Below, piece after piece: positions 1,743 through 50,682 of a stretch of DNA of 64,000 nucleotides (positions are counted from its first letter, which is position 1; each line of letters begins with the position of its first letter). The notes beneath the pieces are model-generated. The model saw nothing but the letters and a program-made list of their open reading frames with translations, made no database searches and was not told the DNA's origin. The position numbers were made by a program, and so were the translations under genes. Source of the stretch: Parietichytrium sp. I65-24A. Its lineage: Eukaryota; Sar; Bigyra; Thraustochytrida; Thraustochytriidae. Location of the stretch: the NCBI GenBank assembly GCA_012862575.1, contig BLSF01000061.1, positions 214,349 to 278,348 of the forward strand, in the 5' to 3' direction.

Positions 1743-1744
1743 GT

Positions 1745-7446: not shown

Positions 7447-8571
7447 CTATTTTTTTGGAAGATGACAAGACGAACATATAATTCTTCTGGAAGAACGCAG
7501 TCCATTCGTTTTCGAGGACGGTACAATCGTTTCTAATGGTGAATCACGTGGCTTGTTACCATACATGTGATAGCCTTCGGTTTTCTCCTCAGTCTCCTCG
7601 AAACATCTTTCGATCAACTCCATATTGTATTGATTAAACCAAAATTCCTTATCCTCCATACCTCTGCGCATAAACACTTCTCTAATGAGTGGTTGTTTCA
7701 ATTCCCAAGAGCGGATGATTGTCTTTGAAACTGCATTTTGAAAAACCACATTCTTTGAACACAATTTTTTACGCAAATTTTCTTTATGACCATACATAAA
7801 GTATTCATGCCACAAATATCCAAGTATACTGTTCGCAGATCGAGCCTCTTCTTTGTCTACAATTGCTATACCCTTCAGTTTGTCAACCTTTCCTTTGATT
7901 TCGTTTTCATCTTTTCGTTCTCGTTCTTTGAGTTTCTTTTGACGCTCAGCGATACGTTCCTCGATTCTGGCTCGAATAGATGGGCTTATCGTGATACTGG
8001 CTCCATGTAGCTTTTCTCTGTAGTATTCTTTTTGTTTAATGTACGTATTGTTGAATTTATTCATGAAATCCTTGTCCTTAAAGTCAGGTTCTAACGTAAA
8101 CCCATCTAAAACTTCACGACGGACATTATATAAACGTGTTTTAAACTCATCATTGAGGGCTTCGTTGTAGCATGTGAAGGTTACGTTCTTTTCCTCATCT
8201 TCTTCAAAACCGTTGAATAAATAGTAGTTTGTTGGTTTTTCGTGCGGATCTGCCCAATAGGGAATTACGATGACTCTATTATAACACTCTTTGTCGTTTA
8301 TACCTGACCAAACATATTTAATAAATTCGTCTATATCAAGTTTTGTGCATATGTCGTCCGAATCAAATGTGGGACAGATAAACAAGTGAAAAAGAGCTCT
8401 ATTGTCGTCATTTAGATATTTCTCCAGCTCAGAAAGATCAGTCGTTAGGAATCTGAATTCCATTTGAGTCCAGTTCAATATTGCTTTCGTAAACTTCTTC
8501 TGAGTATCATCATGATTGCCTTTATTATCAATGATTGTCTTTACAATAGCGTTGATATCTTTTTCATCCAT
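7447..8571 (-). CDS. Unknown protein of the SSRR-CxxC tail group, second paralogue
   Basis: 374 aa from the ATG at 8571 (MDEKDINAIVKTII). A longer reading frame exists, but its extra residues come from the upstream TATA/hairpin region; the paralogue at 6924 starts at the same MDEKDIN. It is about half identical to that protein across its length. The shared part includes the coiled-coil-like stretch (RIEERIAERQKKLKERERK) and the C-terminal third. The tail reads RSSRRIICSSCHLPKK, keeping both cysteines and the basic end. Divergence is highest in the N-terminal 200 residues, as expected for an older duplication than the 1279/5827 pair. Function unknown. Confidence 0.75.
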   Translation of the reverse strand: MDEKDINAIVKTIIDNKGNHDDTQKKFTKAILNWTQMEFRFLTTDLSELEKYLNDDNRALFHLFICPTFDSDDICTKLDIDEFIKYVWSGINDKECYNRVIVIPYWADPHEKPTNYYLFNGFEEDEEKNVTFTCYNEALNDEFKTRLYNVRREVLDGFTLEPDFKDKDFMNKFNNTYIKQKEYYREKLHGASITISPSIRARIEERIAERQKKLKERERKDENEIKGKVDKLKGIAIVDKEEARSANSILGYLWHEYFMYGHKENLRKKLCSKNVVFQNAVSKTIIRSWELKQPLIREVFMRRGMEDKEFWFNQYNMELIERCFEETEEKTEGYHMYGNKPRDSPLETIVPSSKTNGLRSSRRIICSSCHLPKK

Positions 8572-8603
8572 TCTCCAATAGTAAACAAAAAAAATATTCA
8601 CAA

Positions 8604-8614
8604 GCATATATATA
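8604..8614 (-). promoter_or_regulatory. TATA-type motif upstream of 7447-8571 gene
   Basis: TATATATATGC on the coding strand about 33 nt upstream of the ATG; hairpin element 4 follows 21 bp upstream, reproducing the layout at 6954-7073. Confidence 0.6.
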
Positions 8615-8635
8615 ACACGCTTTGAATTCAGAGAT

Positions 8636-8696
8636 GAAACCACCATTGGAATCAGAGCTTGCAGAGAAGCACACTCGTGATTCCAACGGTGGTTTC
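8636..8696. repeat. Palindromic hairpin element 4
   Basis: Arms 8636-8654 and 8678-8696 around a 23-nt loop. A solo right arm lies at 8798-8816. TTAGGGTTTT-type sequence (CCTAGGGTTAGGGTTTTTAC) lies between them at about 8711-8730. Confidence 0.9.
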
Positions 8697-31279: not shown

Positions 31280-32203
31280 ATGATTAGTGGGCACTTGTAT
31301 AAGTTTCATAGTCCGATCACGATTTCTGCACGATCTCTAACCGTCCATCGATTTGAATTCATCAAGGCGCCGCGAGAAAGAACGTTCTTCAAGCTCTATA
31401 CTTCAACGGCAAATGAACATCTCGACACCCCCACGTTGTACTATACCCATTTTATCGATGTATCAAGAAAAAACAACGACAAACTCATACTTCGAGAAAA
31501 CGATTCTTACATGCCGTTGGTAATTCGATATGGGCACTATGAGAACATCGTTGATTCCATCCCTCGCAAACGGGCACCTAACGTATCACAAACCTACACT
31601 ACAGAAGCATTGTTCAAGGCTTTGTTGAATGATCCAACGTCATACATTGATCGAGGGGAAGCGAAAACCATCAATGATGATGCTTTATATGAACTCAACA
31701 AGCCACAAACGCTAACTCTCAAAGTCGGTTTCGAAGATTATAGGGAGCTCATTGAGAAGAGCACATCAGTGTATCAATTTGAACGCTCAACGAAGCTGAA
31801 TCTCCCTCGAGGTTTAACCAACCACGAACGAGCTAAAAACCAGCTTGCGCCGGTTTACTATAGTGGCAAGCTAAGTGAACGATGTTACAAGCTCTACACA
31901 AAAGACTGGCAGCGGAAGACAAATTTACAGGCGGATCAACATCCAAATAGTCAGTTGAAATTTTCTTGGGTGTTGATAGAAATTTACGTCACAGACACGT
32001 TGATGATAGTAGATCGATACATCCGACGTCCGATGCTGAATGAAAATGGCCGATATCCACGTGAGGAGAAGGAGGAGGACGAGGATGAGGAAAGAGTATT
32101 GCATAGTTCATTTCTCCCATGGCGAACTTGCCTGGACCCAAGCTTGAGTGAAAAAATTGATCAATGTTTTGTTTGTGGGAAATATAGGTATATAACGAAT
32201 TAA
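31280..32203 (+). CDS. Unknown protein with C-terminal CxxCGK tail
   Basis: 307 aa, ATG at 31280 (MISGHLYKFHSPITISARSL); TATA-type GTATATAC about 43 nt upstream. Mixed alpha/beta protein rich in Tyr, Arg and Thr. An acidic Glu/Asp run occurs at about 270-282 (REEKEEDEDEERV). It ends DQCFVCGKYRYITN, so a CxxC pair sits 13 residues from the C-terminus, followed by Lys/Arg, as in the otherwise unrelated proteins at 34529 and 42130. Function unknown. Confidence 0.65.
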   Translation: MISGHLYKFHSPITISARSLTVHRFEFIKAPRERTFFKLYTSTANEHLDTPTLYYTHFIDVSRKNNDKLILRENDSYMPLVIRYGHYENIVDSIPRKRAPNVSQTYTTEALFKALLNDPTSYIDRGEAKTINDDALYELNKPQTLTLKVGFEDYRELIEKSTSVYQFERSTKLNLPRGLTNHERAKNQLAPVYYSGKLSERCYKLYTKDWQRKTNLQADQHPNSQLKFSWVLIEIYVTDTLMIVDRYIRRPMLNENGRYPREEKEEDEDEERVLHSSFLPWRTCLDPSLSEKIDQCFVCGKYRYITN

Positions 32204-34528: not shown

Positions 34529-35545
34529 TTAAATAAAAGATGGTTCCATGATTCGTTTGCCGCATGTCTTGCATTTCTTGCTGGGCCGCAGCTCGGTATC
34601 GTCATCTAATATTTTCATCAGATCTTTAGTTACTTTACCACTATGAATTTGAAAGAGTTTTTCATGCTCAATACATGATTTTATGCATTTATGTCCGCCT
34701 TTGCATCTTTTTCCATACTTGTGACATTCTTCACAGTCGCGAAATAATTTAGATAAACACCTTGTTTGTAATGTATCATAGCCAGTGTTTTTAAACATGC
34801 ATGTATCGAAAACAGCGTTGTAGAAATAATCCCAGATCCCATCTCGTAGTAAAAATAATTTTGCATCGGGATAAAGCTCCTTCCATGCTGTAAAATAGTC
34901 TCTTTTCTCCCATGTGCTTTTCACTTTGTCAAAGTCTGGAAATTCCGTCTTTTGGTCGTGGTTCCTACTAACTGCTCCACGGAACGACCTTAATTTGAAA
35001 TTATTTTCTGCAATGATGAGTTGCTTAAACTTCAATCCATCATTGAGTTCCCTGGGGGAGTTTTCATAAACATCATAAGGGTTTGTATACACAAAGTGCA
35101 TCCGGAAATCAACCGGATCATCTCTTTGGATGACGTCTTTCAATAGTTTCGATTTGTCGTATTTAAAATTTGAAAAGTCCACCACATACTCGAGTCCTAG
35201 TATACTAAGGTTTGGCATAGGATACTGAATTAAGACAGTTATATCCCATGCTTCTGTCAATTTGGGGTTTGAAAGATACTCATACAGATCAAAATTATCC
35301 GTGATTGTCTGCTCTATCTTTGGAGAATCTGATGAAAACACTGATACTGCTTTCTTGTCTTTCGAGTTCTGGAGAATCAGTGGGTACCTTGGACTACGAA
35401 AAGCCGCAGGAGTGAATCTTGAATGGAATAAAAAGTTTGACGAGATTCCTGCTAGTAAATTCATATAGTAGCTCGTTCCTAGAACGCCCCCACATTCATC
35501 TGTTGTAATGACAAGTATTCGCTGACGACTACTGTTTTCGCTCAT
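34529..35545 (-). CDS. Unknown Cys-rich protein with C-terminal CxxCGKR tail
   Basis: 338 aa, ATG at 35545 (MSENSSRQRILVITTDECGG), TATA-type motif at 35574-35584. The N-terminal half looks like an alpha/beta fold with a glycine-rich first loop (DECGGVLGTSYY). A dense Cys/His cluster lies at about 255-290 (CEECHKYGKRCKGGHKCIKS), probably zinc-binding. The tail is KKCKTCGKRIMEPSFI, again CxxC followed by GK. A 3' piece of the gene is duplicated just downstream (34491-34525 repeats 34538-34573). Function unknown. Confidence 0.7.
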   Translation of the reverse strand: MSENSSRQRILVITTDECGGVLGTSYYMNLLAGISSNFLFHSRFTPAAFRSPRYPLILQNSKDKKAVSVFSSDSPKIEQTITDNFDLYEYLSNPKLTEAWDITVLIQYPMPNLSILGLEYVVDFSNFKYDKSKLLKDVIQRDDPVDFRMHFVYTNPYDVYENSPRELNDGLKFKQLIIAENNFKLRSFRGAVSRNHDQKTEFPDFDKVKSTWEKRDYFTAWKELYPDAKLFLLRDGIWDYFYNAVFDTCMFKNTGYDTLQTRCLSKLFRDCEECHKYGKRCKGGHKCIKSCIEHEKLFQIHSGKVTKDLMKILDDDTELRPSKKCKTCGKRIMEPSFI

Positions 35546-37763: not shown

Positions 37764-38234
37764 TCAACGTCTTCTCTTGCCGCACAAATGACAACATTTA
37801 CTGGAAGTTCGATCAAACAACCCAATTTGTTCGCTGCAACGTCGACTACTTGTATCCCATCTCTTTATTGTAGTTACCTCTTTTTCAAACGCTTCAAAGA
37901 TACCCTTATCGTTTAGCAGTTTATACGTTTCTACCGAGAAAATACCATTCTCTGCCCATTCACTTTCATTATATAAAGATGTAATAACATCTAAATATCT
38001 AAACTTTTCCTCCCGATCCGTAATTTTAATGCTTTGCAGGGACAAAACGATCTCATATATTTTATTTTGGAGAGACCTGTTCTTTTGAATTTTTCTAATA
38101 ATCTTTTCATTTGAATTCTCGACAAGTCTCAGATACTTGATAAGTAACCTAACCGTAGAGGCATAGTCTAATGTTTTCTCTCCATGAAAACTTTCAATCT
38201 CTGTCTTCAATTTTTCATAGTTTAAGCTCTGCAT
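37764..38234 (-). CDS. CxxC-tail family, single-module member
   Basis: 156 aa, ATG at 38234 (MQSLNYEKLKTEIESFHGEK). One all-helical module of about 120 residues, with RKIQKNRSLQNKIYEIVLSL, IKITDREEKFRYLDVITSLY and GIFSVETYKLL, is shared with the proteins at 40925, 43658, 46244 and 47594. The end contains the tail twice: a degenerate copy (WDTSSRRCSEQIG) and a final intact one (RTSSKCCHLCGKRRR). This shows that tail-coding DNA can be tandemly duplicated. TATA-type motif at 38266-38274. Function unknown. Confidence 0.7.
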   Translation of the reverse strand: MQSLNYEKLKTEIESFHGEKTLDYASTVRLLIKYLRLVENSNEKIIRKIQKNRSLQNKIYEIVLSLQSIKITDREEKFRYLDVITSLYNESEWAENGIFSVETYKLLNDKGIFEAFEKEVTTIKRWDTSSRRCSEQIGLFDRTSSKCCHLCGKRRR

Positions 38235-38265
38235 TTTTTTTCTTAAGTTTAAGTTTTCGTCTCCA

Positions 38266-38274
38266 CGTATATAT
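38266..38274 (-). promoter_or_regulatory. TATA-type motif upstream of 37764-38234 gene
   Basis: ATATATACG on the coding strand about 32-40 nt upstream of the ATG. Confidence 0.55.
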
Positions 38275-38288
38275 CTAATTTTTCTGTC

Positions 38289-38400
38289 AGCAACGAGGTG
38301 ATGTCCATGTAGACACTTCCAGTTTCGTATTCTCTAACCTAAACAATATTTGACATTCAGCCTGAAAACGATCATTTTCGCGTAATTTTTCGATAAGATT
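38289..38400 (-). pseudogene. Decayed C-terminus of a CxxC-tail gene
   Basis: Minus-strand reading gives KLRENDRFQAECQILFRLEN, then TKLEVSTWTSPRC and a stop. This matches the last 40 residues of the protein at 40925 (ELCENVLFQQECLKVFREVN, TKLKTLEWTSSRRC), but the CxxC is cut after its first Cys. Upstream similarity is lost. Confidence 0.7.
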
Positions 38401-38499
38401 AGGTTTAGGTGATGTTGTAGTCTTTTCTCTCACCGGTGGATTGTCTTCAGCTTTCCCTTCAGAGCATGAAATGATGAAAAATCTTAGGTTACATAGATG

Positions 38500-38567
38500 A
38501 TTAGGATGATGATGATGGTGACAGTTGAAAAGGAAACGATGAATGGGAGTGGGTTGGTGGACATTTT
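38500..38567 (-). pseudogene. Fragment of the N-terminus of the 36870 gene
   Basis: GATGATGATGGTGACAG and GAAACGATGAATGGGAGTGG repeat the start region at 37550-37612. On the minus strand it encodes MSTNPLPFIVSFSTVTIIII, then soon stops. Only the membrane anchor was copied. Confidence 0.65.
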
Positions 38568-38575
38568 ATTTGAGT

Positions 38576-40522
38576 TTAAGTTTTGAATAGTTTGCCGGTT
38601 ATGTCATATATAAGTATTCTTAAAACTAATGAATCCCCGAATGGTTTACAAGTTGATTGTCCTGCTTGTTCTCGTTCTATACGATCAAGAGTTACAGGCT
38701 TGATGTATTTTTCTAATCGACGAAATAACGAGTTCAAGAACTTATAAACAGGTTCATCGATATCTTGACCCGAATTGGTGCTTTGGTACTTTTGCATGAT
38801 CTCTCTGATTTCAGTTACCTGTCTACGAACAACGACTCTGTCTCTTTCAGAAATCTTTTCAAAAAGTAAGTGCAATAACACTTTCGTAGTTCTGGACAGA
38901 CCATCAGTGACTCCCTTATCAGGATCAAACATTATTGTGATGTACGGTTGTTCTTTCTCGCCGTAATTTTTAAAGCTATCAGTAATCGATTTTACACATT
39001 TCTCTTGAAACTCATCATCCATTTCCAGAACGTGAACAGTCCTCGAAATCACTTCAGATATAGTATCTGGATCCATATTAAAGTATCTTACATTCGTTTT
39101 GATGTAATCCATACTAAAAATGATTTGTGAAAGTCTCCAAATCTCTGGTAACTTAAGGAACTCATTATAGCTTTGTACGAATATCTGAACGATACCATTC
39201 TTTTTATACTTGGGATCAAACAACGTATCACATCGTTTTCGGGAGAAACAACTAAAGAAACTACCACTAGTAGTAGTAGTAGTATCCCGTTCACAAGAAT
39301 TTTTAGTACTGCGACGGCGCGAAGCTGCTTGTGCTGGATATACAGTGGCTTCTTTGCTACTCTCCATACGAGCAGGAGTTTGTTCTCGTTCTATACGATC
39401 AAGAGTTTCAGGAGTGATGTATATTTTTAATAGACGAATCCCCGAGTTCCAATAGCTGTATTCAGAGATATCGATAAATTGACCCGAATTGACTATATCG
39501 GTGCTTTGGCACGCTTCAATGATCTTTCTGATTTCAGATACATGTCTGCGAACAATATCTCCTTCATAATTCTCTTCAAAAACTAAGTCCAAGAACGCTA
39601 TCGTAGAGTTGGACAGACCATTAGTGAAATCCGCGTCAGGCCAAAACATTTTACTGATGTGTATTTGTTTGTTCTCGTCGTAAGTTTTAAAGCAATTTGC
39701 AATTGATTCTGCACATTTATTTTGAAACGTTTCATCCATTTTCAGAAAGTCAGCAGTCTCCGAAATAACTTTAGAGACAGTATTTGGATCCATACTAAAG
39801 ACCGTTGGGTTAATTTCCATTCGATCCAATCTTCCAGTGATACTTGAAAGTATGTTAATCTTCGGAGAATCAAGAAACATGTCATACCATCTTACCCATG
39901 TCTGAACGTCACGATTCTCTTTATACTTGCTATCAAACAACGTAGTACGTCGTTTTTGTTTTCGTTTTCGTTGTCGGTTTCTCCCACCAGTAGTATTATC
40001 TGATTCATTTCTAGGAGATATCGAAATGTATTTATTCAACATCGATTCCGTTAATCCACATTTAAGAGCTTTTTTCCTGATTTGAGATAACTCTCTGTGA
40101 ACAATACGTCCATAAGCATTCTTTACAAAAAGTAACTGCAATAAATGGATTGTACACTCGGAGAGACAGATTCTGAATGACGTGTTTTCATACATCGCGG
40201 TGATACAAGACTCATCATCATCATCGTATTCTTGAAAGCATTTTGCCATCAATTCTGCGCATTTAGATTGAAAATCATCATCGTTTTTCAGAAAGTCGAC
40301 AGTCTTTTCAACTTCTTCCGTAACGTAGTCAGGATCTATATCCTTCCTGGCGTTCATTGTATAGTCACCTGGACGCCACTTCATTGAAGACAACTGATCA
40401 TTGATTTGACAGAGCTTGTCAAGATTGGGCTTTCTACAAAATGATTTATACGTCTCTCTAAATGGAGAAACCCAGACAATTGAGACAAACGTGTCACCAA
40501 ATAAACCTTCTTGACCAGACAT
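38576..40522 (-). CDS. Three-module helical repeat protein (module B family)
   Basis: 648 aa, ATG at 40522 (MSGQEGLFGDTFVSIVWVSP). Three copies of a helical module of about 150 residues can be aligned. Each has F(L/F)K.D..FQ.KC...(I/M)..CF..Y, then LS..T...L.L.F, then a VRR..SEIRKI block, at about 20-170, 205-370 and 440-610. The linkers are basic or Ser/Thr-rich (RNRQRKRKQKRR, RDTTTTTSGSFFSCFSRKR). The same module occurs once in the CxxC-tail protein at 42130 and in the decayed gene at 40573. This protein itself lacks the CxxC tail. TATA-type motif at 40551-40562. Function unknown. Confidence 0.7.
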   Translation of the reverse strand: MSGQEGLFGDTFVSIVWVSPFRETYKSFCRKPNLDKLCQINDQLSSMKWRPGDYTMNARKDIDPDYVTEEVEKTVDFLKNDDDFQSKCAELMAKCFQEYDDDDESCITAMYENTSFRICLSECTIHLLQLLFVKNAYGRIVHRELSQIRKKALKCGLTESMLNKYISISPRNESDNTTGGRNRQRKRKQKRRTTLFDSKYKENRDVQTWVRWYDMFLDSPKINILSSITGRLDRMEINPTVFSMDPNTVSKVISETADFLKMDETFQNKCAESIANCFKTYDENKQIHISKMFWPDADFTNGLSNSTIAFLDLVFEENYEGDIVRRHVSEIRKIIEACQSTDIVNSGQFIDISEYSYWNSGIRLLKIYITPETLDRIEREQTPARMESSKEATVYPAQAASRRRSTKNSCERDTTTTTSGSFFSCFSRKRCDTLFDPKYKKNGIVQIFVQSYNEFLKLPEIWRLSQIIFSMDYIKTNVRYFNMDPDTISEVISRTVHVLEMDDEFQEKCVKSITDSFKNYGEKEQPYITIMFDPDKGVTDGLSRTTKVLLHLLFEKISERDRVVVRRQVTEIREIMQKYQSTNSGQDIDEPVYKFLNSLFRRLEKYIKPVTLDRIEREQAGQSTCKPFGDSLVLRILIYDITGKLFKT

Positions 40523-40550
40523 ATTTTATATAATTTTTGAGTTTACGTGT

Positions 40551-40562
40551 CCACATATATAT
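40551..40562 (-). promoter_or_regulatory. TATA-type motif upstream of 38576-40522 gene
   Basis: ATATATATGTGG on the coding strand, about 29-40 nt upstream of the ATG; it overlaps the 3' end of the decayed gene at 40573. Confidence 0.5.
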
Positions 40563-40572
40563 TTAAATAACC

Positions 40573-40881
40573 TCAACGCCTTTTCCTACCGCAAACGGTA
40601 CAACGACGACTTGATGTACTTATACCCGATTGTTTAACATAATTTAGATAATTCTAGATACGATTAAAGGTTTACTTTCCTTCAGAGCTTTGACAGCATT
40701 TTCAATGTCATCAGGTTTGATATCGCCTGGTTCCTTAATGATTTCATAGTGCAATAGAAAGGTTGGGTGTAGAAAAACCTTTGACATCTATCGTGAACCC
40801 AACGAACGCTATAGTTTGATGGATATTTTTCCAATAGAGCATTGTATCTAAAAAATCGTCTATATAAAAGGTTTTCTTCAT
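40573..40881 (-). pseudogene. Decayed module-B gene with intact CxxC tail
   Basis: An ATG at 40881 opens MKKTFYIDDFLDTMLYW and about 47 codons before a stop. A second frame continues with HYEIIKEPGDIKPDDIENAV (compare EADDIKNEDIRGAINIL in the gene at 42130) to a stop near 40650. A third gives YVKQSGISTSSRRCTVCGRK-RR and TGA at 40573. The pieces are colinear with a single module plus tail, so two frame breaks have destroyed the gene. The tail shares the SGISTSS string with an internal segment of the 40925 protein. Confidence 0.7.
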
Positions 40882-40924
40882 ATCTTTTCTTTTGTTTATT
40901 TTAGGAAATCGAAACTCGTAATAA

Positions 40925-41824
40925 TTATTTCATGCGATGCTTCCCGCAGACATTACAACGACGAGATGATGTCCATTCCAACGTTTTCAGCTTTGTATTC
41001 ACTTCACGGAACACTTTTAGACACTCTTGTTGAAAAAGCACGTTTTCGCATAATTCTACGTTAATAGTATGCTTAGTTTGGTCCCATTTCGAGTTGATTA
41101 GAATTAAACCACGAGAAAATTCCAAGAGTGAATCGACACCGGGATCATTTAGGAAGTTATCCAAGTTCTTTTCATAATGGTCGAAATAGTCTTGTCTACT
41201 CCATATAAGATGTGTCTTGTCGTCGTGCTCGGCACGTATTCTAATACGCCCACGCGCGTCCTTTCCCAAAAGACTGCGAATATAAGCCATCGACTTAATT
41301 TCTGATTTTGTCTCTTCGGATAGGCAATCGAGAGGAAAAACTCCTAGCATATGCTTCAGTTGGTCAGTCATTTCAAAACTACCACTAGTAGGAGAACTTG
41401 ACCAACGAGATGATGTACTTATACCCGATTTTTGAACAAAAATTAGATAATTCTCGATACGTTTAAAGGTACCATTGATGGTTAGCTTACGAAGCGTATC
41501 TTTCGAGAAAATTGTGTACTTATGATGTTGGTAATAAAAAGTGTTACAAAGCTTGATAAATGTCTGCCTTTGGTCATCATTAATATCAATTGTTCTCATG
41601 GCAAAAATGATGTCAAAAATTTTATCTTGGATATCCATATCGTCTCGAATTCTTTGAATCAACGTTTCATCTGAACCTTTGTTATCTCTCACATGCTCGA
41701 TAAGTACTTGAATTGCAACGGCACATTGAAATGCATACTGGTGAGTATAGTTTTCAATATTAAAGCTTCGAATCAGTTCCAATTGTTCGGACATCTCCGG
41801 TAGCAATTCTTCTACGCTCTGCAT
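40925..41824 (-). CDS. CxxC-tail family, two-module member
   Basis: 299 aa from the ATG at 41824 (MQSVEELLPEMSEQLELIRS). The open frame extends upstream but only through a fragment of another gene (41850-41990), and the TATA motif at 41857-41866 lies inside that extension. Module 1 (about 1-145) has the family blocks (RIRDDMDIQDKIFDIIFAMR, IDINDDQRQ, YTIFSKDTLRKL). A relic of an internal tail (KSGISTSSRWSSSPTSG) separates it from a second region ending in LCENVLFQQECLKVF. The C-terminus is EWTSSRRCNVCGKHRMK. The internal relic shows that this protein arose by fusion of two tail-bearing units. Confidence 0.72.
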   Translation of the reverse strand: MQSVEELLPEMSEQLELIRSFNIENYTHQYAFQCAVAIQVLIEHVRDNKGSDETLIQRIRDDMDIQDKIFDIIFAMRTIDINDDQRQTFIKLCNTFYYQHHKYTIFSKDTLRKLTINGTFKRIENYLIFVQKSGISTSSRWSSSPTSGSFEMTDQLKHMLGVFPLDCLSEETKSEIKSMAYIRSLLGKDARGRIRIRAEHDDKTHLIWSRQDYFDHYEKNLDNFLNDPGVDSLLEFSRGLILINSKWDQTKHTINVELCENVLFQQECLKVFREVNTKLKTLEWTSSRRCNVCGKHRMK

Positions 41825-41849
41825 TTTTTTTCTTAAAGTTTGAGTTTTC

Positions 41850-41990
41850 GTCTCTACGTATATATGAAATTTCTCATTTTTTCTTCCATGATGTTTTCCA
41901 TGTCGTTTGTACAACCCAAGATGTTGCGTTCCATGGGGAAAGATCAAATGATGATCAAATTTGAATCCAATCGAATACGTCTACTGAAAC
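41850..41990 (-). pseudogene. Fragment of an alpha/beta-hydrolase gene used as upstream region
   Basis: Encodes KFDHHLIFPHGTQHLGLYKR-type sequence continuous with the frame above, but truncated on both sides. About 110 bp are nearly identical to 42720-42860. It now forms the upstream flank (including the TATA motif) of the gene starting at 41824. Confidence 0.7.
41857..41866 (-). promoter_or_regulatory. TATA-type motif upstream of 40925-41824 gene
   Basis: CATATATACG followed by TAGAGACG on the coding strand, 33-42 nt upstream of the ATG. The extended form CATATATACGTAGAGAC resembles 44170-44187. Confidence 0.6.
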
Positions 41991-42129
41991 CGCAAACGGT
42001 ACAGTATCTACGAGAAGATACGATGGTCTCTTTTAGCTTAGGAGTTTGTTCGAATCCATCAAGATGTGAGCGTTAGGTAGGTAGAGAGCATAAAAATGTG
42101 GTAGATGGAAAAATGCTTTTTAATTGTTA

Positions 42130-42678
42130 TTAATTATTTCTCTTGCCGCAGACGTGGCAACGTTTACTGGAAGTTACAGCATAACTATTCATTGATTGTT
42201 CATTATCTGACTTACTGCGGCGAACAACTTTTTTAGACAGCCCTTTTTGCCAAAAACAAGATTCCAATACCTTTTTTGTATTGTCGGAGAGACAGATAGT
42301 GAAACGCTCAGGTTCAACAAACATTCCGCCGATGAGCATTCCTACAGACTCCCATATGTTTTTAAAGCGATTTTGAAGTAGTTTTACACACTTTGATTGA
42401 AATTCAATATCTTTCTTCAGAATATTGATAGCTCCCCGAATATCCTCATTTTTGATATCGTCTGCTTCTTTAAGCATTGAAAACAAAACATAATTGATTT
42501 CACTGAGTACTAAAAGATTCGGGCTTTTATCAAATTGTCGAATTCTATCTGTAAGAATACAAACATATTCGTTCTCAGTATATTCTGTCAATCCAATGGT
42601 TTGAGCAATTACTTCATTTTCTTTCTTTCTTAGATAAATTTCTTTTCTTTTTTCCTCTCTTGTGTTCTCGACAGACAT
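42130..42678 (-). CDS. CxxC-tail protein with single module B
   Basis: 182 aa, ATG at 42678 (MSVENTREEKRKEIYLRKKE). One module of the type found three times in the 38576-40522 protein: ILKKDIEFQSKCVKLLQNRF, GGMFVEPERFTICLSDNTKK, then a KKVVRRSKSDNEQS segment. It ends AVTSSKRCHVCGKRNN. So the CxxC tail is attached here to a module different from that of 37764 or 40925, showing that the tail moves between families. TATA-type motif at 42711-42720. Confidence 0.7.
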   Translation of the reverse strand: MSVENTREEKRKEIYLRKKENEVIAQTIGLTEYTENEYVCILTDRIRQFDKSPNLLVLSEINYVLFSMLKEADDIKNEDIRGAINILKKDIEFQSKCVKLLQNRFKNIWESVGMLIGGMFVEPERFTICLSDNTKKVLESCFWQKGLSKKVVRRSKSDNEQSMNSYAVTSSKRCHVCGKRNN

Positions 42679-42710
42679 TTTTTTCTTGTTTTATAAATAT
42701 TTTATCTCTA

Positions 42711-42720
42711 CGTATGTATG
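42711..42720 (-). promoter_or_regulatory. TATA-type motif upstream of 42130-42678 gene
   Basis: CATACATACG on the coding strand about 33-42 nt before the ATG; one base different from the motif at 41857, and the flank is a copy of the same hydrolase fragment. Confidence 0.5.
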
Positions 42721-42990
42721 AAATCTCTCATTTTTTCTTCCATGATGTTTTCCATGTCGTTTGTACAACCCAAGATGTTGCGTTCCATGGGGAAAGATCA
42801 AATGATGATCAAATTTGTATCCAATCGAATACGTCTGCTGAATCTTGGCAAGCGTAGTGACGGGGTCGTGCTCATTGTGTATCATCATGATGTTTTCCTC
42901 GCCACCAAGTTTTGCATGAATGTTTGATCGCACGATTTCTGTGATATTGACCTTATCCGCGTCTGAAAGAACGATTCAAGCATGTTTTCA
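42720..42990 (-). pseudogene. C-terminal remnant of an alpha/beta-hydrolase gene
   Basis: A frame without start reads VNITEIVRSNIHAKLGGEEN, then IMMIHNEHDPVTTLAKIQQT and FDHHLIFPHGTQHLGLYKRH. The Asp of NEHDP and the His of HGTQH are in the right order for the acid and histidine of an alpha/beta hydrolase. An upstream stop and the lack of a nucleophile region show it is truncated. Its closest copy is at 41850-41990. Confidence 0.65.
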
Positions 42991-43200
42991 TCGTTGATCA
43001 TTGTTGTCTGTATGTGTCCTGAATATCCATTCATCCATCCAGGTTAGGATCCTCAATATGTATATGTGTGACATTTCAAAGCACTATGAGCACAATGAAT
43101 GAATGTATGAAACCACTTAGGTTAGGTTAATAATGCATGGTTTCTTGAAATAATGAGGTGACGAGAATCATTAGTAAGATTAGTGTTGAAACTAGTTTAG

Positions 43201-43500
43201 TCATTCTTCTTCTTCTTGATCACTTAAAATCATTTCGTCAAGACCGACATTGTACAACCTTGAAACTACTCCTCGTCCTAAATCGTTGTGTTCCAAGTCG
43301 AGAAACGTGAGTTTGGAATTTTCTATCACTTCAACAAATGCATCGCCACCATCGTCCTTGATAGAATTGCATCCTAGGTCGCGTTCCTCCACGTTACAAT
43401 CTCTCAAAGCATCTGCCAAAGCACGCGCACCGTTGTCTCCAAATTTACAAGTGTTTAGCCCGAGGATTTTTAGAAAAGTACAACTCGAGAGGCTATCATC
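43201..43500 (-). pseudogene. 5'-truncated leucine-rich-repeat gene
   Basis: About 98 codons without ATG read as ribonuclease-inhibitor-type LRRs: CTFLKILGLNTCKFGDNGAR, ALADALRDCNVEERDLGCNS, then LTFLDLEHNDLGRGV, ending in a very acidic SDQEEEE. The upstream end reaches an ACATATACGATGATA string at about 43497-43509, which looks like the TATA module seen at 47554. However, the ATG there is out of frame. A larger LRR gene appears to have been cut by a rearrangement that brought in a promoter. Confidence 0.65.
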
Positions 43501-43610
43501 GTATATGTGCGCGTGAAATCATGCCATCGATTAATGAACATCATGATGAAGCGGCAACAGACGATCGAAATCTGAAAAAATGGGTACATGTGAATTTTGT
43601 ATTGGACGTA

Positions 43611-43620
43611 CATATATACG
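43611..43620 (+). promoter_or_regulatory. TATA-type motif upstream of 43658 gene
   Basis: CATATATACG followed by ACGATGAAAAAA, 47 nt before the ATG. The same extended string occurs at 46201 and 47554. Confidence 0.65.
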
Positions 43621-43657
43621 ACGATGAAAAAATTGTCTTTATATAGAGAGAAGAAAA

Positions 43658-44128
43658 ATGACATCTTTGTTTCGGAAAAAAAGAAGTGAACAAGAGCATG
43701 GATTGACAAATACACTTAAGCAAGTTAACCAGTCATCATCGGATATTTATGAACAACTCAAGGTGATTTCATCAATCCGTGATCGTATAAATGATTTCGA
43801 AGAATTAGAAAGAGATGAAATAACTCAACGCATTCGTGGCGATGAAAGACTCCAAAAAAAATTTAGAGACATATTTTCCAAGCTTAATCTTGAATTTATC
43901 AATGGGGACGGGCGATATTTTGCAGGAAGGTACATTGACACTTTAAACATTCTTCAAAAAATTTTGAAAGAATTCAAACGCGTTCAGAATGAATCAATAT
44001 TTAGTGAATTTACTAGAGATTTTGAAGACATGGTCACGCTACCGCTTGATGGAATAAAGACAAAACTCGGTCCGGAATATCAAAAATATTGTGCAAAATG
44101 TGGTGGTAGAAAGAAAAACCTAACCTAA
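43658..44128 (+). CDS. CxxC-tail family, single-module member (GGRK type)
   Basis: 156 aa, ATG at 43658 (MTSLFRKKRSEQEHGLTNTL). One helical module: EQLKVISSIRDRINDFEELE, ITQRIRGDERLQKKFRDIFS, then FAGRYIDTLNILQKILKEF and SIFSEFTRDFEDMV. The blocks match the first module of the proteins at 46244 and 47594 and, more weakly, 37764 and 40925. It ends KYCAKCGGRKKNLT; the last residues and stop are provided by a CCTAACCTAACCTA tract. Helical and charged; probably a protein-binding scaffold. Function unknown. Confidence 0.72.
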   Translation: MTSLFRKKRSEQEHGLTNTLKQVNQSSSDIYEQLKVISSIRDRINDFEELERDEITQRIRGDERLQKKFRDIFSKLNLEFINGDGRYFAGRYIDTLNILQKILKEFKRVQNESIFSEFTRDFEDMVTLPLDGIKTKLGPEYQKYCAKCGGRKKNLT

Positions 44129-44169
44129 CCTAGAATCATGTCATTGTGTTACCTAACCAGGAAAAAAAA

Positions 44170-44180
44170 CATATATACGT
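44170..44180 (+). promoter_or_regulatory. TATA-type motif upstream of 44221 gene
   Basis: CATATATACGT then GTAGAGACG, 51 nt before the ATG at 44221. Confidence 0.6.
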
Positions 44181-44220
44181 GTAGAGACGTTTTCAGTAAA
44201 AAAAAGAAAGGAAAGAAATC

Positions 44221-44850
44221 ATGACAACCGATAGAGACGCAGAGAGTATTCAAAATGACATCAACTCTTTTCTGGCCATGTTGCCAGTTGAACAAAGTGT
44301 ATCCAATTTACATCAATTGTATATGGAACACTCGATGAGACTCTATGGTAGTGAAAGAAATAGTTCGAATCATGTGATTGCATATTGCATCCGCCGTTCT
44401 GGAAAGACGAGTTCAATTGCATCATTTGCTCTTGCACTAGCATTATGTGTCTCTAAAAAGAACATCAGCATCGTTACAGTATCTGAGCTTACGCGAAATC
44501 ACATGATCGATGCGATCTTGGCAATCGCCAAAGTATTCGGTGTATCGAAGATGATCACCGTAGAAAGACATGGTTCCATTCGAGTCTCTCACAGAAATGG
44601 TGATGAAAGTGTCATCCAAGTGTATCCAGCTCACATGCATTCACATTCTTCGGACATCTATTTTATAGACGGTGCTGAAAATATGCATGTAACGATGGAT
44701 CTGAAAGAGGTGCCAATTATTGGTGTGATGACGAAACCTCCATCTGACGTGAGAATGGATTGTGGGCAAATCTACGATTTCACCGAGCAGCAATTCGATT
44801 GGATGAAATCTAGGATGAGTGAAGCTCCAATACTACGCGCCATGAGTTAA
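44221..44850 (+). CDS. P-loop ATPase, possibly a terminase/packaging-type ATPase domain
   Basis: 209 aa, ATG at 44221 (MTTDRDAESIQNDINSFLAM). A Walker A-like motif RRSGKT at 58-63 follows a hydrophobic strand (VIAYC). A helix comes next (SSIASFALALALCVS), then a strand NISIVTVSEL, and a Walker B-like DIYFIDGAEN with Asp at 150. The RRxGKT form and the following ALALA helix plus strand are as in terminase large-subunit ATPases of tailed phages, herpesviruses and mirusviruses. Against this, the usual acidic residue after the Walker B Asp is displaced (DGAE rather than DE) and there is no nuclease domain. It may be a stand-alone or decayed ATPase. Its neighbours are CxxC-tail genes. Confidence 0.5.
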   Translation: MTTDRDAESIQNDINSFLAMLPVEQSVSNLHQLYMEHSMRLYGSERNSSNHVIAYCIRRSGKTSSIASFALALALCVSKKNISIVTVSELTRNHMIDAILAIAKVFGVSKMITVERHGSIRVSHRNGDESVIQVYPAHMHSHSSDIYFIDGAENMHVTMDLKEVPIIGVMTKPPSDVRMDCGQIYDFTEQQFDWMKSRMSEAPILRAMS

Positions 44851-44917
44851 ACTTAGGTCGACTCTGAAATAATTGCATCAATCAAATAAATAAATAAATA
44901 AAAAGAATGGAATGATT

Positions 44918-44980
44918 GAAACCACCGTTGGAATCAACGATTTCTTTGGTGAAAGCACGGGTGATTCCAATGGTGGTTTC
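44918..44980. repeat. Palindromic hairpin element 6
   Basis: Arms 44918-44936 (GAAACCACCGTTGGAATCA) and 44962-44980 (TGATTCCAATGGTGGTTTC); loop CGATTTCTTTGG... is shared with elements 7 to 11. It ends 17 bp before the TATA motif of the next gene. Confidence 0.9.
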
Positions 44981-44997
44981 ATTCGTTACAACCTAAT

Positions 44998-45008
44998 CAT
45001 ATACGACG
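44998..45008 (+). promoter_or_regulatory. TATA-type motif upstream of 45044 gene
   Basis: CATATACGACG 46 nt before the ATG and 17 bp after hairpin element 6. Confidence 0.6.
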
Positions 45009-45043
45009 AAACAAAATTTTAGAAAAGAAACGCACTCTTGATC

Positions 45044-45655
45044 ATGTCTGATTTGCAAGAACGAGATCAGTGGAAATGTTATCTCAAAATTTTCAAAGTT
45101 GGCTTTATTAGAAAAAGACTGAAAGACTCAGATTTGAAACAAATTCTAGATGGACTTGGGTTTCACGATGTGTTCATGAGGTTCCAAAAAAATAAAGTTC
45201 AGGCCGAGGTTTTTTCTGGTGATTTGATAGATTGTATAGTTGACTGTTTCCAAAAGACAACATCAACTGAACGTGACATCACCTGTCTATTTAACGAGAT
45301 CGTGGGAAATGACAATTTTGGGTACGCTTCGCATCAATATTCTCTACAATTTGGCGATAGGATCAATTTTGGATCGCTATTGGAATTCACCCCGAGGTGT
45401 GAACAACCTCACTTTACGTTTGAGTTCTTATTGGCTCGTATCCTTGTCCATAAATTAAAAGGACCATGGGAAGCAGTCTTTGATTTCGTTTCACATCGAG
45501 TTCTAGTCATGAACAACCCGAGGGAAGTGGAAATACTTGAAGAAATCTTGACAAGTCATGTACACAACAACAAAGCCATTCGAACCAAAATTGAGTTAAT
45601 TCTTGATCGTATTGATAGAAGAAATAAAACATGCAATCAACTAACTAGTCAATGA
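45044..45655 (+). CDS. Unknown helical protein
   Basis: 203 aa from the ATG of MSDLQERDQWKCYLKIFKVG; two codons upstream lies only a TTG. Helical throughout, with several Cys and aromatic residues (CYLKIF, FHDVFMRFQKN, HFTFEFLLARILVHKLKG) and a conserved C-terminal helix (NNPREVEILEEILTSHVHNN). That helix is duplicated as a separate small frame at 48689-48814. No CxxC tail (ends CNQLTSQ). It lies under the hairpin-TATA layout of its neighbours. Function unknown. Confidence 0.65.
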   Translation: MSDLQERDQWKCYLKIFKVGFIRKRLKDSDLKQILDGLGFHDVFMRFQKNKVQAEVFSGDLIDCIVDCFQKTTSTERDITCLFNEIVGNDNFGYASHQYSLQFGDRINFGSLLEFTPRCEQPHFTFEFLLARILVHKLKGPWEAVFDFVSHRVLVMNNPREVEILEEILTSHVHNNKAIRTKIELILDRIDRRNKTCNQLTSQ

Positions 45656-45952
45656 CCGTCCTTGCAGAAAGTGAAACACGTGATAATAACTCACATGATC
45701 TTTGGTTGATGTCATAAAACCACCATTGGAGTCATCGGTGTTTTCGCGCGATGATAATTTATCAGCAATTAAATCACCATGATTTAATCGACTCGGTCAG
45801 CTTTTAATTCATATTCTACGATTCATTAGCACCCGCGGTTTAAGTTTGAGTCGGTAAAGTTTAATTTTCGATGACATGAATTCAGACTGATGGTTTTTGC
45901 TATATGGAATGTGGAAAGTCAAACGGTGAATCCGCAGATGAGAGAAAGCGTG

Positions 45953-46020
45953 AGTGAGTGAGTGAGTGAGTGAATGAAATGGAATGTGGAATGGAATGGA
46001 TGAAACCACCATTGGAATCA
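45953..46020 (+). repeat. GAGT/GGAAT microsatellite with solo hairpin arm
   Basis: (GAGT)n at about 45953-45975 followed by GGAATGTGGAATGGAATGG and a left arm at 46002-46020. The same microsatellite-then-hairpin order occurs at 47105-47166 and 47250-47344. Nothing coding is seen in 45,656-46,200. Confidence 0.75.
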
Positions 46021-46128
46021 CTTCACTCCTGCGCGCAGAAACACTCGTTCACCATCGCTTGGGCAGCTGCTACTACTACTGATGCTCATCTGCAGGATGC
46101 ATTGACCCAAAATCAGTCCCATCTAGAT

Positions 46129-46193
46129 GAAACCACCGTTGGAATCAACGATTTCTTTGGCTAAAGCAAGCGGGTGATTCCAATGGTGGTTTC
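46129..46193. repeat. Palindromic hairpin element 7
   Basis: Arms 46129-46147 and 46175-46193, ending 7 bp before the TATA motif. Just upstream, GCATTGACCCAAAATCAGTC recurs at about 49152-49172. Confidence 0.9.
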
Positions 46194-46200
46194 ATACGTG

Positions 46201-46211
46201 TTATATATACG
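46201..46211 (+). promoter_or_regulatory. TATA-type motif upstream of 46244 gene
   Basis: TTATATATACG followed by ACGATGAAGAAA, 43 nt before the ATG at 46244. Confidence 0.65.
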
Positions 46212-46243
46212 ACGATGAAGAAATGCTTTTTCAAAACAGGAGA

Positions 46244-47083
46244 ATGTCATTGTTTTCCTTTGAAAACCGAAAGGATTTTCTAGGACGGCTTGAACCAATG
46301 CAGAAATTAGAACAGTTAAAAACACAAGTTAGTGATGAAAATTTGTCGTATTTTCAACGACTCGAGGCAATTTCATCAATTAGTACTTGTTTAACATTGT
46401 TCAATGAATCCGTTGGCAGTTTTGAAATGAGTGAAATTCGTCGAGATGAAGCACTTCAGTCTAGTTTTAAAGATATAATTTCGGGATCTGATGCATCAAT
46501 TCCTAAAAATTACAGTAAAAGTCTTGAAATTCTTTATGAAATTGTGATGGAGTGCAACCGTGATTTGGATCATTGTATGTTTTCTGAAAAAGAACGTATT
46601 GGAAGAGGAGTTGAAAAATTGATTGATATCATGAAGACTGAAGAATACAAGGCTAACGTAATCATACCTCAAGACGATCCAATAGAAAGTTTAGAGTTTC
46701 ACATCCGAGAAGTGAAAAATGATGAAAGAACTATTTTGCATCGATTCATGTCGATCTTTGGAATCTTTTATGATTTATCCCTTATGGGAAGGTATACAAA
46801 CTTTTTTTCAAGAGCGAGAATATCCCGTGACAAAGAGCTCCAGGAAAAAGTTTTAAAGATCATCAGGAATATCAGCTCTCATAAAATTCCTGAGGAGCAT
46901 CTTGATGATTTCTATTCGGCTGTGAAGACTATTCATGAACGTTCAAATAAATCAGGCTTCATTTTTTCCCCCAACGAGGATCAAATCCGTGCAAAAACCG
47001 GAGAAATATTACGTGAACGAGATACAACTGATGAAACGAGTGATAGCTGTGCAAAATGTGGGGGGAGAAAAGTCAATCGGTGA
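46244..47083 (+). CDS. CxxC-tail family, two-module member (GGRK type)
   Basis: 279 aa from the ATG at 46244 (MSLFSFENRKDFLGRLEPMQ), chosen because its distance from the TATA motif matches the sister genes; an in-frame ATG seven codons upstream is possible. Module 1 (about 15-130) has YFQRLEAISSISTCLTLFNE and RRDEALQSSFKDII. Module 2 (about 145-245) has HRFMSIFGIFYDLSLMGRYT and SRDKELQEKVLKIIRNIS, then GFIFSPNEDQIRAKTGEIL. It ends SDSCAKCGGRKVNR. It is closest to the protein at 47594, and module 1 is closest to the single-module protein at 43658. Confidence 0.72.
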   Translation: MSLFSFENRKDFLGRLEPMQKLEQLKTQVSDENLSYFQRLEAISSISTCLTLFNESVGSFEMSEIRRDEALQSSFKDIISGSDASIPKNYSKSLEILYEIVMECNRDLDHCMFSEKERIGRGVEKLIDIMKTEEYKANVIIPQDDPIESLEFHIREVKNDERTILHRFMSIFGIFYDLSLMGRYTNFFSRARISRDKELQEKVLKIIRNISSHKIPEEHLDDFYSAVKTIHERSNKSGFIFSPNEDQIRAKTGEILRERDTTDETSDSCAKCGGRKVNR

Positions 47084-47147
47084 ATCCGCACATGAGAGAA
47101 AGACTGAGTGAGTGAGGGAATGAAATGGAATGTGGAATGGAAGGGAT

Positions 47148-47212
47148 GAAACCACCGTTGGAATCAACGATTTCTTTTGGTAAAAAGCACGGGTGATTCC
47201 AATGGTGGTTTC
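47148..47212. repeat. Palindromic hairpin element 8
   Basis: Arms 47148-47166 and 47194-47212. It follows a GAGTGAGTGAGG / GGAATGTGGAATGG tract and precedes ACTGATTCACTTCGTTCAGA, a flank also present after element 9 and element 11. Confidence 0.9.
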
Positions 47213-47325
47213 ACTGATTCACTTCGTTCAGAGAAGACTTAGACTATGGGTGAGTGAGTGAGGGAGTGAGTGAGGGAGTGAGGGAATGGAATGTGGAATG
47301 GAATGGAATGTGGAATGGAATGGAT

Positions 47326-47390
47326 GACACCACCGTTGGAATCAACAATTTCTTTGGTAAAAAAGCACGGGTGATTCCAATGGTGGTTTC
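47326..47390. repeat. Palindromic hairpin element 9
   Basis: Arms 47326-47344 (GACACCACCGTTGGAATCA) and 47372-47390. It is a tandem near-copy of element 8 including the microsatellite on its left (47250-47325). Confidence 0.88.
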
Positions 47391-47477
47391 ACTGATTCAC
47401 TTCGTGTGGAGACTATTAATGAACGTTCATATGATCAACGTTCAGTTCAGAGAGACTCAGTTTACTCCTCACTCGTC

Positions 47478-47529
47478 GAAACCACTGTTAGAATCAACGA
47501 TTTCTTTTGATTATACCAATGGTGGTTTC
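47478..47529. repeat. Palindromic hairpin element 10 (degenerate, short loop)
   Basis: Arms 47478-47496 (GAAACCACTGTTAGAATCA) and 47511-47529 (TTATACCAATGGTGGTTTC); mismatches in both arms, ending 24 bp before the next TATA motif. Confidence 0.75.
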
Positions 47530-47553
47530 TACGGACAGAGTTTGACAGAAGTA

Positions 47554-47561
47554 CATATACG
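47554..47561 (+). promoter_or_regulatory. TATA-type motif upstream of 47594 gene
   Basis: CATATACG then ATGATGAAAAAA, 40 nt before the ATG at 47594. Confidence 0.6.
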
Positions 47562-47593
47562 ATGATGAAAAAACATCGTTTTTAACAAGAAAG

Positions 47594-48673
47594 ATGCAAC
47601 GCTTATTTTGTGGAAGGCATGAGTCATACCCAAGTTTAGGACGTTATTTTGATTGGAAAACAACTGAAATAATGGATAAAACTCAGACGATTATTGAGCG
47701 ATTCGATAATATTGTTCGTATCGGCGATGAAGCAAAGATGTTATATGATATTAAGAATGAACCCAAAATCATGAAGATTCTTAAGAACAACGACCTCCAG
47801 CTCTGTTTTCAGAGTATAATTACTGAATATTCTAGAGATTGTATTGAGCATTCTTTTCCTGTAACATGTTACAAAATTCTTATGCGATTGGATCATCTTG
47901 AGTACAAGTGCATTCAATCTTATCTTAAAACTGGATCAATTTTCACTGCTTCTACTCAACGTTTATTCTACGACACGATTGAAAAAATAAAGGATAAATT
48001 ACTAATGAGGACGCATGTTATATCAAAACATGTCAATGTACCAAGGATACAATACACCAAACATTTATCACCCTCAGAAGGGATAGAAGATCATATCAGA
48101 AAAGTGACAGATGATGGAAACACCCTATTGTATCGTTTCATTGCGATCCATGGAATCTTTCATTATTTATACCTTATGAAAGATGATGAATTTCGTCAAT
48201 GGCATAAAAGAATTAACTATGATATAGTACTCGAGGAAAACGTTTGGAACATCATTAAAGAGATAGGCTCCTATGACTATTCCGAAATCCCTCGGCAGTA
48301 TATGATCACTTTCGATTTTGTTCTGGATACTATTGGTTATTTTACTGGAAAGCGTTACGTGTACTCCTTTAACAGATTCAGAGAAATAATTCGGCCATTG
48401 ACCCAAATCTTGATAAACGAACGGAAGAAAAGTACATCTGTAAAATCAAAACAATCCTATACGTTTGATGGACCAGAGATAAATATTCCAACTGTGGAAA
48501 CTGCGTATGAGAAATCACTTTTTTCGAAAAAAATTAGGAGAATAGAGAAATGTGAGGAAGAAAACCGTGTGTTAGGTTACACTAAATTTTATATGCACGA
48601 CATCAAAGATGAACTACAGAGTGCTGAGGAAACTGGTGATAGCTGTGCAAAGTGTGGAGGGAGAAAAGTTTAA
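47594..48673 (+). CDS. CxxC-tail family, large two-module member (GGRK type)
   Basis: 359 aa, ATG at 47594 (MQRLFCGRHESYPSLGRYFD). Module 1 (about 30-130) contains KILKNNDLQLCFQSIITEYS and a GSIFTASTQRLFYDTIEKI block. Module 2 (about 150-275) has LLYRFIAIHGIFHYLYLMKD and ENVWNIIKEIGSYDYSEIP. A charged extension (about 275-340) is unique to this copy. The tail is EETGDSCAKCGGRKV. Compared with the sister at 46244, the modules have diverged more than the last ten residues, which suggests that the tail is under stronger constraint. Confidence 0.72.
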   Translation: MQRLFCGRHESYPSLGRYFDWKTTEIMDKTQTIIERFDNIVRIGDEAKMLYDIKNEPKIMKILKNNDLQLCFQSIITEYSRDCIEHSFPVTCYKILMRLDHLEYKCIQSYLKTGSIFTASTQRLFYDTIEKIKDKLLMRTHVISKHVNVPRIQYTKHLSPSEGIEDHIRKVTDDGNTLLYRFIAIHGIFHYLYLMKDDEFRQWHKRINYDIVLEENVWNIIKEIGSYDYSEIPRQYMITFDFVLDTIGYFTGKRYVYSFNRFREIIRPLTQILINERKKSTSVKSKQSYTFDGPEINIPTVETAYEKSLFSKKIRRIEKCEEENRVLGYTKFYMHDIKDELQSAEETGDSCAKCGGRKV

Positions 48674-48688
48674 CGGTGATTCCGCACC

Positions 48689-50531: not shown

Positions 50532-50565
<34 letters not shown>

Positions 50566-50681: not shown

Positions 50682-50682
50682 N

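Follow-up and report, generated by a model that had tools for sequence, protein, structure and literature searches.

A shared C-terminal CxxC tail, putatively half of a zinc site, on diverse orphan proteins of a low-GC island in Parietichytrium

The window analyzed here, 64,000 nucleotides (nt) that form the last 64 kb of contig C61 (BLSF01000061.1) in the 42.5-Mb genome of the thraustochytrid Parietichytrium sp. I65-24A, contains a gene-dense island of low G+C content that encodes fast-changing orphan proteins with a common C-terminal tail. The tail reads C-x-x-C-G, or K, H or N in place of the Gly, followed by basic residues, and a Ser/Arg-rich linker lies ahead of it in several genes. In 4-kb steps, G+C is 0.36–0.46 over window positions 1–52000 and 0.53–0.55 in the right flank from 52 kb; 15 sampled stretches of host DNA have 0.43–0.61 per kb, with most values near 0.5. 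Much of the island is present a second time, in syntenic form, on contig C134 (45.9 kb), with protein identities to the window of 83% for gene 38576, 88% for 34529 and 91–92% for 31280, the three genes compared. Window genes are named by their first coordinate (Table 1), and those of C134 have a c prefix.

A protein was counted as tailed if its open reading frame (ORF) encoded at least 150 amino acids (aa), the second Cys of a CxxC was among the 15 final residues and was followed by two or more Lys/Arg; the null came from shuffling the 40 C-terminal residues. Such a tail is present in ten of 39 non-overlapping ORFs in window positions 1–50000 (shuffle mean 0.33, maximum 3 in 2000 shuffles) and in 6 of 30 on C134, one of them a tandem duplicate (shuffle mean 0.35, maximum 3). 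Fifteen 10-kb host samples gave 2 of 61 ORFs (shuffle mean 0.14, maximum 2), and there were none among four ORFs in the adjoining C61:200–214 kb or among five in the host part of the window. The ten are not ten independent events, because several are paralogues. An initial annotation of this DNA had described the tail as recurrent, and its enrichment over shuffled C-termini is borne out in the island and its C134 copy, checked there and in the host samples. The ten intact proteins it named all end as it said, although the one placed at 46244 is ORF 46223–47083 read from a later start. The fragment at 1279 and the decayed gene near 40573 hold the full tail it gave them; the decayed gene at 38289, credited with the same, reads W-T-S-P-R-C and then a stop (frame read by eye) and has lost the second Cys. 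Further full-length relics lie at about 41944–42072 on the minus strand, missing from its list, and at 1064 of C134 stretch L018. Outside the strict rule we found by eye three more tails on C134, all in stretch L016: 6237 and 7402, with 16–17 residues past the second Cys, and 8430, with one Lys. Also on C134, beside tail genes, a protein of leucine-rich-repeat-like look (L016 4726–5715) begins with RCTNCGGKCRGTGARK, which is tail-like at the wrong end.

All-against-all BLAST and profiles divide the bodies into six groups. Group A holds 42130, c432, c1194, c8430, the tailless c9117 and the three domains each of 38576 and its orthologue c1939; group B holds 43658, 37764, c6237, c7402, the first domain of 40925 and the two domains each of 46223 and 47594. 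Group C consists of 5827, 7447 and 1279, groups D and E of 34529 and 31280, each with its orthologue, and c6041 stands alone. On C134, c6041 has a tandem duplicate that includes part of the neighboring RCC1-like gene (L018 6041–6556 and 7204–7719), which may be an assembly effect because one junction contains N.

Many A and B members share, by eye, D-x-x-[FL]-Q-x-K and a later [CI]-[LF]-S-x-x-T. Scored against the A profile, three of seven B members exceed 498 or more of 500 shuffled versions of themselves, and six of seven exceed 480 or more, with 40925 matching through its appended A-like segment and not its B domain. In the reverse direction none of the four tail-bearing A members tested stands out from its shuffles, 76 to 493 of 500 of which do as well; the tailless A protein c9117 is reached by 14 of 500 and the D protein 34529 by 33 of 500. 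The one signal that hhalign gave between groups was weak and joined A with the latter half of 40925 (P 0.0037, probability 3.7%). Groups A and B may thus be one remote superfamily, and C, c6041, D and E appear separate from A/B and from each other at this sensitivity. The claim of at least four unrelated bodies accordingly stands in part: C, c6041, D and E are without detected homology, whereas A and B are perhaps remotely related. A single family for all bodies was rejected, as profile comparison finds no link between groups except the weak A/B signals. AlphaFold2 models of A (42130) and B (43658) are confident helical bundles, with mean pLDDT of 86.5 and 84.7 and tail blocks of about 43–59; the fold search listed one African swine fever virus (ASFV) multigene family (MGF) 505 fragment at E 4.4, which is no match.

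Nucleotide comparison by blastn among 15 gene units from A, B, C and c6041 revealed ends that are shared between different bodies. Gene c432 (A) and 40925 (B) share a stretch of 183 nt (−161 to +19, hence with the first codons) at 96.7% identity; 40925 matches 42130 (A) at 97.1% across 138 nt of upstream DNA; and 37764 (B) matches 42130 at 80.6% over 62 nt, which run through the tail codons to 16 nt beyond the stop. The bodies between these ends do not align by blastn in A and B genes, so that the earlier view of the tail as a transferable module agrees with what the DNA holds: A/B genes have exchanged 5′ and tail/3′ blocks. Its proposal of tail duplication and fusion fares equally well, since fused genes hold decayed internal tails, including the expected ones in 37764 and 40925, and relics match at the DNA level. 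The 40925 relic and the terminus of the decayed gene lying upstream of 38576 are 87.9% identical over 66 nt, and the tail region of c6041 and the internal one of 38576 are 87.5% identical over 32 nt. The CPVC that separates domains 2 and 3 is kept in c1939 and lost in 38576. From these sequences we infer that tailed single-domain genes were fused and that their internal tails then decayed. The blastn matches between C and B genes are palindromic repeats, not tails.

Table 1. Tail genes, relics and associated elements of the window, with predicted protein ends.
Feature	Position	Strand	Details
Group C fragment, tail intact	1279..1872	-	96% identity to 5827 across shared part
Group C tail protein	5827..6924	-	end RSSRRIICSVCHHPKK
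Group C tail protein	7447..8646	-	end RSSRRIICSSCHLPKK
Group E protein	31280..32203	+	end CFVCGKYRYITN; CxxCGKYRY retained in C134 orthologue
Group D protein	34529..35545	-	end KKCKTCGKRIMEPSFI; CKTCGKRI retained in C134 orthologue
Group B protein, two tails	37764..38234	-	internal, decayed: TSSRRCSEQIG; terminal: TSSKCCHLCGKRRR
Decayed gene end	38287..38420	-	stop right after first Cys of tail (WTSPRC, stop)
Three fused group A domains, no terminal tail	38576..40522	-	decayed internal tail between domains 2 and 3
Relic tail of decayed gene	40572..40620	-	STSSRRCTVCGRKRR
Mosaic: group B domain, decayed tail, A-like segment, terminal tail	40925..41824	-	decayed tail STSSRWSSS; terminal tail TSSRRCNVCGKHRMK
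5′ module of 40925	41850..41987	-	97.1% over 138 nt to that of 42130
Additional decayed tail	41944..42072	-	SSRRYCTVCGFSRR; overlaps DNA upstream of 40925
Group A protein	42130..42678	-	end TSSKRCHVCGKRNN
5′ module of 42130	42704..42841	-	
Group B protein	43658..44128	+	tail CAKCGGRKKNLT holds its only two Cys
Two group B domains and tail	46223..47083	+	tail CAKCGGRKVNR
Two group B domains and tail	47594..48673	+	tail CAKCGGRKV
Palindromic element of about 65 bp, example	46128..46194	none	arms TGAAACCACCRTTGGAATCA; between tail genes

Short repeats accompany these genes. ATATATACG is a shared block of the tail genes, and the motif ATATAYACGTAGAGAC has six window sites (shuffle mean 0.48, maximum 4), upstream of 37764, 38576, 40925 and 42130 and, as two overlapping copies, before the tailless gene 44221. 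A B-type variant of it precedes 43658, 46223 and 47594, which accounts for all three of its sites (mean 0.55, maximum 2). The product of 44221 (window 44221–44850) is an orphan in which RRSGKTSS followed by FIDGAENM looks by eye like a terminase or helicase ATPase; it has no notable match among families, PDB entries or viruses. The palindrome, with a loop of about 23–27 nt, has 29 arm-like sites in the window against none expected, mostly around C and B tail genes (window 1043–1107, 6986–8817, 44917–48934 and others), and recurs on C134, C146, C157 and at 46 kb of C61; it is a candidate hairpin terminator or repeat resembling a miniature inverted-repeat transposable element. Right after the stop of 34529 the tail DNA is, by eye, apparently repeated in part.

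Tails are constrained while most bodies change near-neutrally, as pooled over six gene pairs. The ratio of nonsynonymous to synonymous differences per site (pN/pS) is 0.35 in the tail (65 codons) and 0.89 in the body; body windows of tail length have a median of 0.94, and none of 5000 draws was as low as the tail. Tail pN alone was matched or undercut by 15 of 5000 such draws. Amino-acid identity is 0.80 for tails vs. 0.64 for bodies in the same six pairs, again with none of 5000 draws as high, and a count on nine pairs, some of which overlap, with the tail bounded more widely, gives a pN/pS of 0.39 for the tail vs. 0.85 for the body. The excess of tail over body identity is clear in three pairs, 5827/7447, 43658/c7402 and 46223/47594. 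The peptide CAKCGGRK is identical in five B genes whose Gly and Lys codons differ.

For the chemistry of the tail, 18 tail proteins, chosen for their CxxC, were compared. In 14 of them G directly follows C-x-x-C, and the other four have H, H, K and N there; G, H, K and N are the usual residues at that turn of zinc knuckles. Five to eight residues follow the second Cys in 15 of the 18 and at least five in all of them, and the last residue is unconserved, which together fit a binding element better than a terminal-carboxylate signal. Another [CH]xx[CH] is absent from 14 of the 18 bodies, a count that covers this spacing only, and 43658 has no other Cys and one His. Two ligand pairs per chain, the mark of a classical zinc ribbon or finger, are clearly lacking in 43658; group D may be an exception. 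Tail similarity over the six groups is reached by 5 of 2000 column shuffles and by 31 of 2000 random host CxxC segments. Membership is weakest for the tails of D and E, and those of C score poorly against other groups in this gap-free comparison because two extra residues precede the first Cys. Four of ten tail peptides have Pfam matches below the cut-off, three to zinc ribbons or fingers (topoisomerase I, Vps39, S14; TFIIB; ClpX) and one to TNFR; no curated cut-off was reached, the best tail scoring 18.3 bits (TNFR_c6, cut-off 29.4) and the best zinc family 17.5 (cut-off 27). A tail profile gave 17 matches in the PDB (E 0.098–9.3), by name 16 zinc or metal proteins and one antibody; alignments were inspected for the best five only.

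One CxxC is half of a Cys4 site. Two Cys cannot close such a site and most bodies are without a regular second pair, so the tail most likely binds zinc with another chain; by analogy, sharing between chains is also favored because Rad50 completes its zinc site in this way. We propose, with about an even chance of being right, that the tail is a disordered, flexible C-terminal half zinc knuckle by which helical bodies, while they diversify, dock onto a shared partner that completes the zinc site. Each gene would then be built from a constant 5′ control block, a variable helical body and a constant C-terminal tail, as one multigene family or a few converging ones. The second chain could be a sibling tail, giving a homo- or heterodimer as in Rad50, or one common partner that brings the remaining ligands. 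Shared zinc completion would keep every body plugged into one assembly while it diversifies toward changing targets. A bolder form, which we consider rather unlikely, is a zinc handshake code, in which interchangeable half sites join any two bodies, or gather all on one hub, via the shared metal; recombination that swaps tails and promoters between bodies would then yield a combinatorial arsenal with a constant plug. It is uncommon for differing proteins to share a short C-terminal tag, and where they do, the tag usually points to one machine, such as retrieval, lipidation, secretion or ubiquitin adaptors, and the initial annotation had offered a half zinc site completed by a partner, an S-acylation or membrane signal, or virion or factory targeting. 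The putative half zinc site is the best of these.

A targeting tag, for the nucleus, a virus factory or the virion, would have its Cys and basic residues read by a receptor, with or without zinc. The same tag on different bodies, the basic residues and a perhaps viral island all suit it, but no structural virus gene was recognized among the window ORFs covered by the Pfam scans, and we regard it as unlikely. Slightly more doubtful is shared ancestry with gene conversion, by which recombination homogenizes the ends of neighbors without any common function. This accommodates the clustering of most tail genes, their shared 5′ and 3′ DNA blocks and the possible remote kinship of A and B, yet it does not explain why CAKCGGRK is kept in five B genes despite varying Gly and Lys codons or why pooled tail pN/pS is so far below the roughly 0.9 of bodies, and similar tails also sit on C, c6041, D and E, whose bodies have no detected homology (D and E lie outside the DNA comparison).

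Two further readings are improbable to the same degree. An ordinary intramolecular zinc site, each tail being completed by ligands of its own body, could apply to group D, with its extra Cys/His near the C-terminus; it is hard to reconcile with 43658, with the 14 of 18 bodies without a second [CH]xx[CH] at the one spacing covered, and with the low confidence of the tail in both models. If the tail were instead a membrane or S-acylation signal, the Cys pair and basic residues would act as an anchor, and a Cys beside at least one Lys/Arg at a flexible C-terminus is indeed common to all 18 compared tails; acylation, however, needs neither the exact C-x-x-C spacing nor the following Gly, none of the 18 has a prenylation ending (CAAX, CC or CXC), and the last residue varies. 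We give the least credence to a redox tail, a dithiol shuttle or regulated disulfide. CxxC is the classical redox spacing, but neither Pfam nor, for A and B, the fold comparison identified a catalytic body; the Gly and basic residues past the second Cys fit the turn of a metal site better; and none of the 17 PDB matches is thioredoxin-like by name, though a rubredoxin, which carries electrons on iron, is among the 17.

Several observations weigh against the half zinc knuckle. Once A and B are treated as one group, the similarity of tails across groups becomes borderline, being matched or exceeded by 99 of 2000 column shuffles, and the D, E, c6041 and C tails could for that reason be in part independent CxxC ends. 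The sub-threshold zinc matches are partly circular, because any CxxCGK resembles zinc fingers. Group D has more Cys and His, CEEC and CIEH in 34529 and CIEH in its orthologue, that are possible ligands in the same chain. The free end is not strictly kept, given the two C134 proteins with 16–17 residues past the second Cys, and the three-domain 38576 and its orthologue maintain long open frames without a terminal tail. The selection test is small at 65 tail codons, with divergent pairs near saturation, and tail identity does not clearly exceed that of the body in 34529/c7741 (0.91 vs. 0.89), 31280/c2422 (0.91 vs. 0.93) and 42130/c432 (0.45 vs. 0.41).

Searches for relatives outside this genome confirmed none. 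Among 5.8 billion proteins there were no matches at E ≤ 0.01 for C (5827), B (alignment A2) or A (alignment A5); viral contigs held no confirmed relative of 37764 (B), 44221, 34529 (D), 31280 (E) or the TnpB-like 10545, and tblastn of 42130 against phages found none. Pfam gave nothing above cut-off for ten tail proteins, and PHROGs nothing at E ≤ 0.01 for eight window proteins, three of them tail-bearing. Judged by title and the opening of the abstract, no paper listed by term searches of an open library describes this tail, which is no proof of absence. In protein searches of the genome itself, which score best candidates only, A, B and D occur on C61 and C134, C only on C61 and c6041 only on C134; the E orthologue was seen in C134 stretch L029, outside those searches. 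Weak matches elsewhere were on C24 (E 0.0075), C4 (0.097), C72 (0.34) and C27 (0.38).

A giant-virus origin of the island is plausible. A capsid gene of nucleocytoplasmic large DNA viruses (PF04451) lies at C116:55066–55647 and a VLTF3 gene (PF04947) with one in-frame stop at C148:21541–22119, and the genome therefore contains giant-virus DNA, without a link to the island; in a genome-wide search for these two hallmark families, neither was on C61 or C134. Other genes of the region include a pair of Na/Ca exchangers, very similar by eye, at window 2061–3122 and just left of the window (L017 6341–7432). Window ORF 22043–23509 (488 aa) resembles the end of a 1420-aa jacalin-like-domain protein on C134 (L030 877–5139), and gene 19924 is a long ORF in the window and shorter on C134; with one shorter ORF in each, both island copies seem to be eroding. 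Near the right border of the low-GC island is a eukaryotic small-subunit ribosomal RNA fragment (window 50387–50763), and beyond it (59303–62368) one protein combines importin-alpha-like armadillo repeats with an NEL E3-ligase domain, a domain known mostly from bacterial effectors.

If the half zinc knuckle is real, a half-metal-site tag would be a new route to a modular family, with the plug kept and the body varied. The mosaic genes form a readable natural record of how such families are assembled and fused, and the tail makes it possible to search for more members of a protein set that is otherwise orphan.

Among known systems, the terminal MGFs of large DNA viruses such as ASFV are similar in their clustered, fast-diverging paralogues toward the end of an island. 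The first knuckle of zinc ribbons, as in topoisomerase I and the TNB domain (PF07282) of TnpB/Fanzor, shares the pattern T-S-K-x-C-x-x-C-G-K; the tails differ in being without the second CxxC, and PF07282 matched none of ten tail proteins or ten tail peptides. A TnpB/Fanzor-like protein with a TNB domain is encoded in the window itself (10545–12458) and has a C134 copy that is very similar by eye (L030 6469–8382). As a match to 6 of 12 tails its knuckle is equaled by at most 3 of 106 host CxxC segments, and the tails of c432, c8430, 5827 and 31280 match it no better than they match 18–105 of the 106. Derivation of the tail from this gene was rejected, DNA scores lying below the shuffle maximum in 12 of 12 cases.

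Two further systems parallel the putative mechanism. In the Rad50 hook, zinc is completed between two chains, each with one CxxC, and the same source also names the CD4/CD8–Lck zinc site (PMC5093744). The hook sits at a coiled-coil apex in one protein family, whereas the tails here, with zinc putative, sit at a predicted-flexible C-terminus on several bodies; a Rad50-type apex of a long coiled coil with an ATPase is not seen in the A and B models, which are compact bundles with the tail at the C-terminus. The poxviral ANKR/F-box (PRANC) proteins are a multigene set with an N-terminal target-binding body and a constant C-terminal docking element (PMC9414399). Their ankyrin bodies and folded helical F-box/PRANC element differ from the orphan helical bundles of A and B and a CxxC tail of about 15 residues, and no PRANC or F-box domain matched the ten window tail proteins in Pfam at E ≤ 0.1. 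Their combination of a variable body with a constant C-terminal element is the nearest functional analogy to the proteins described here.

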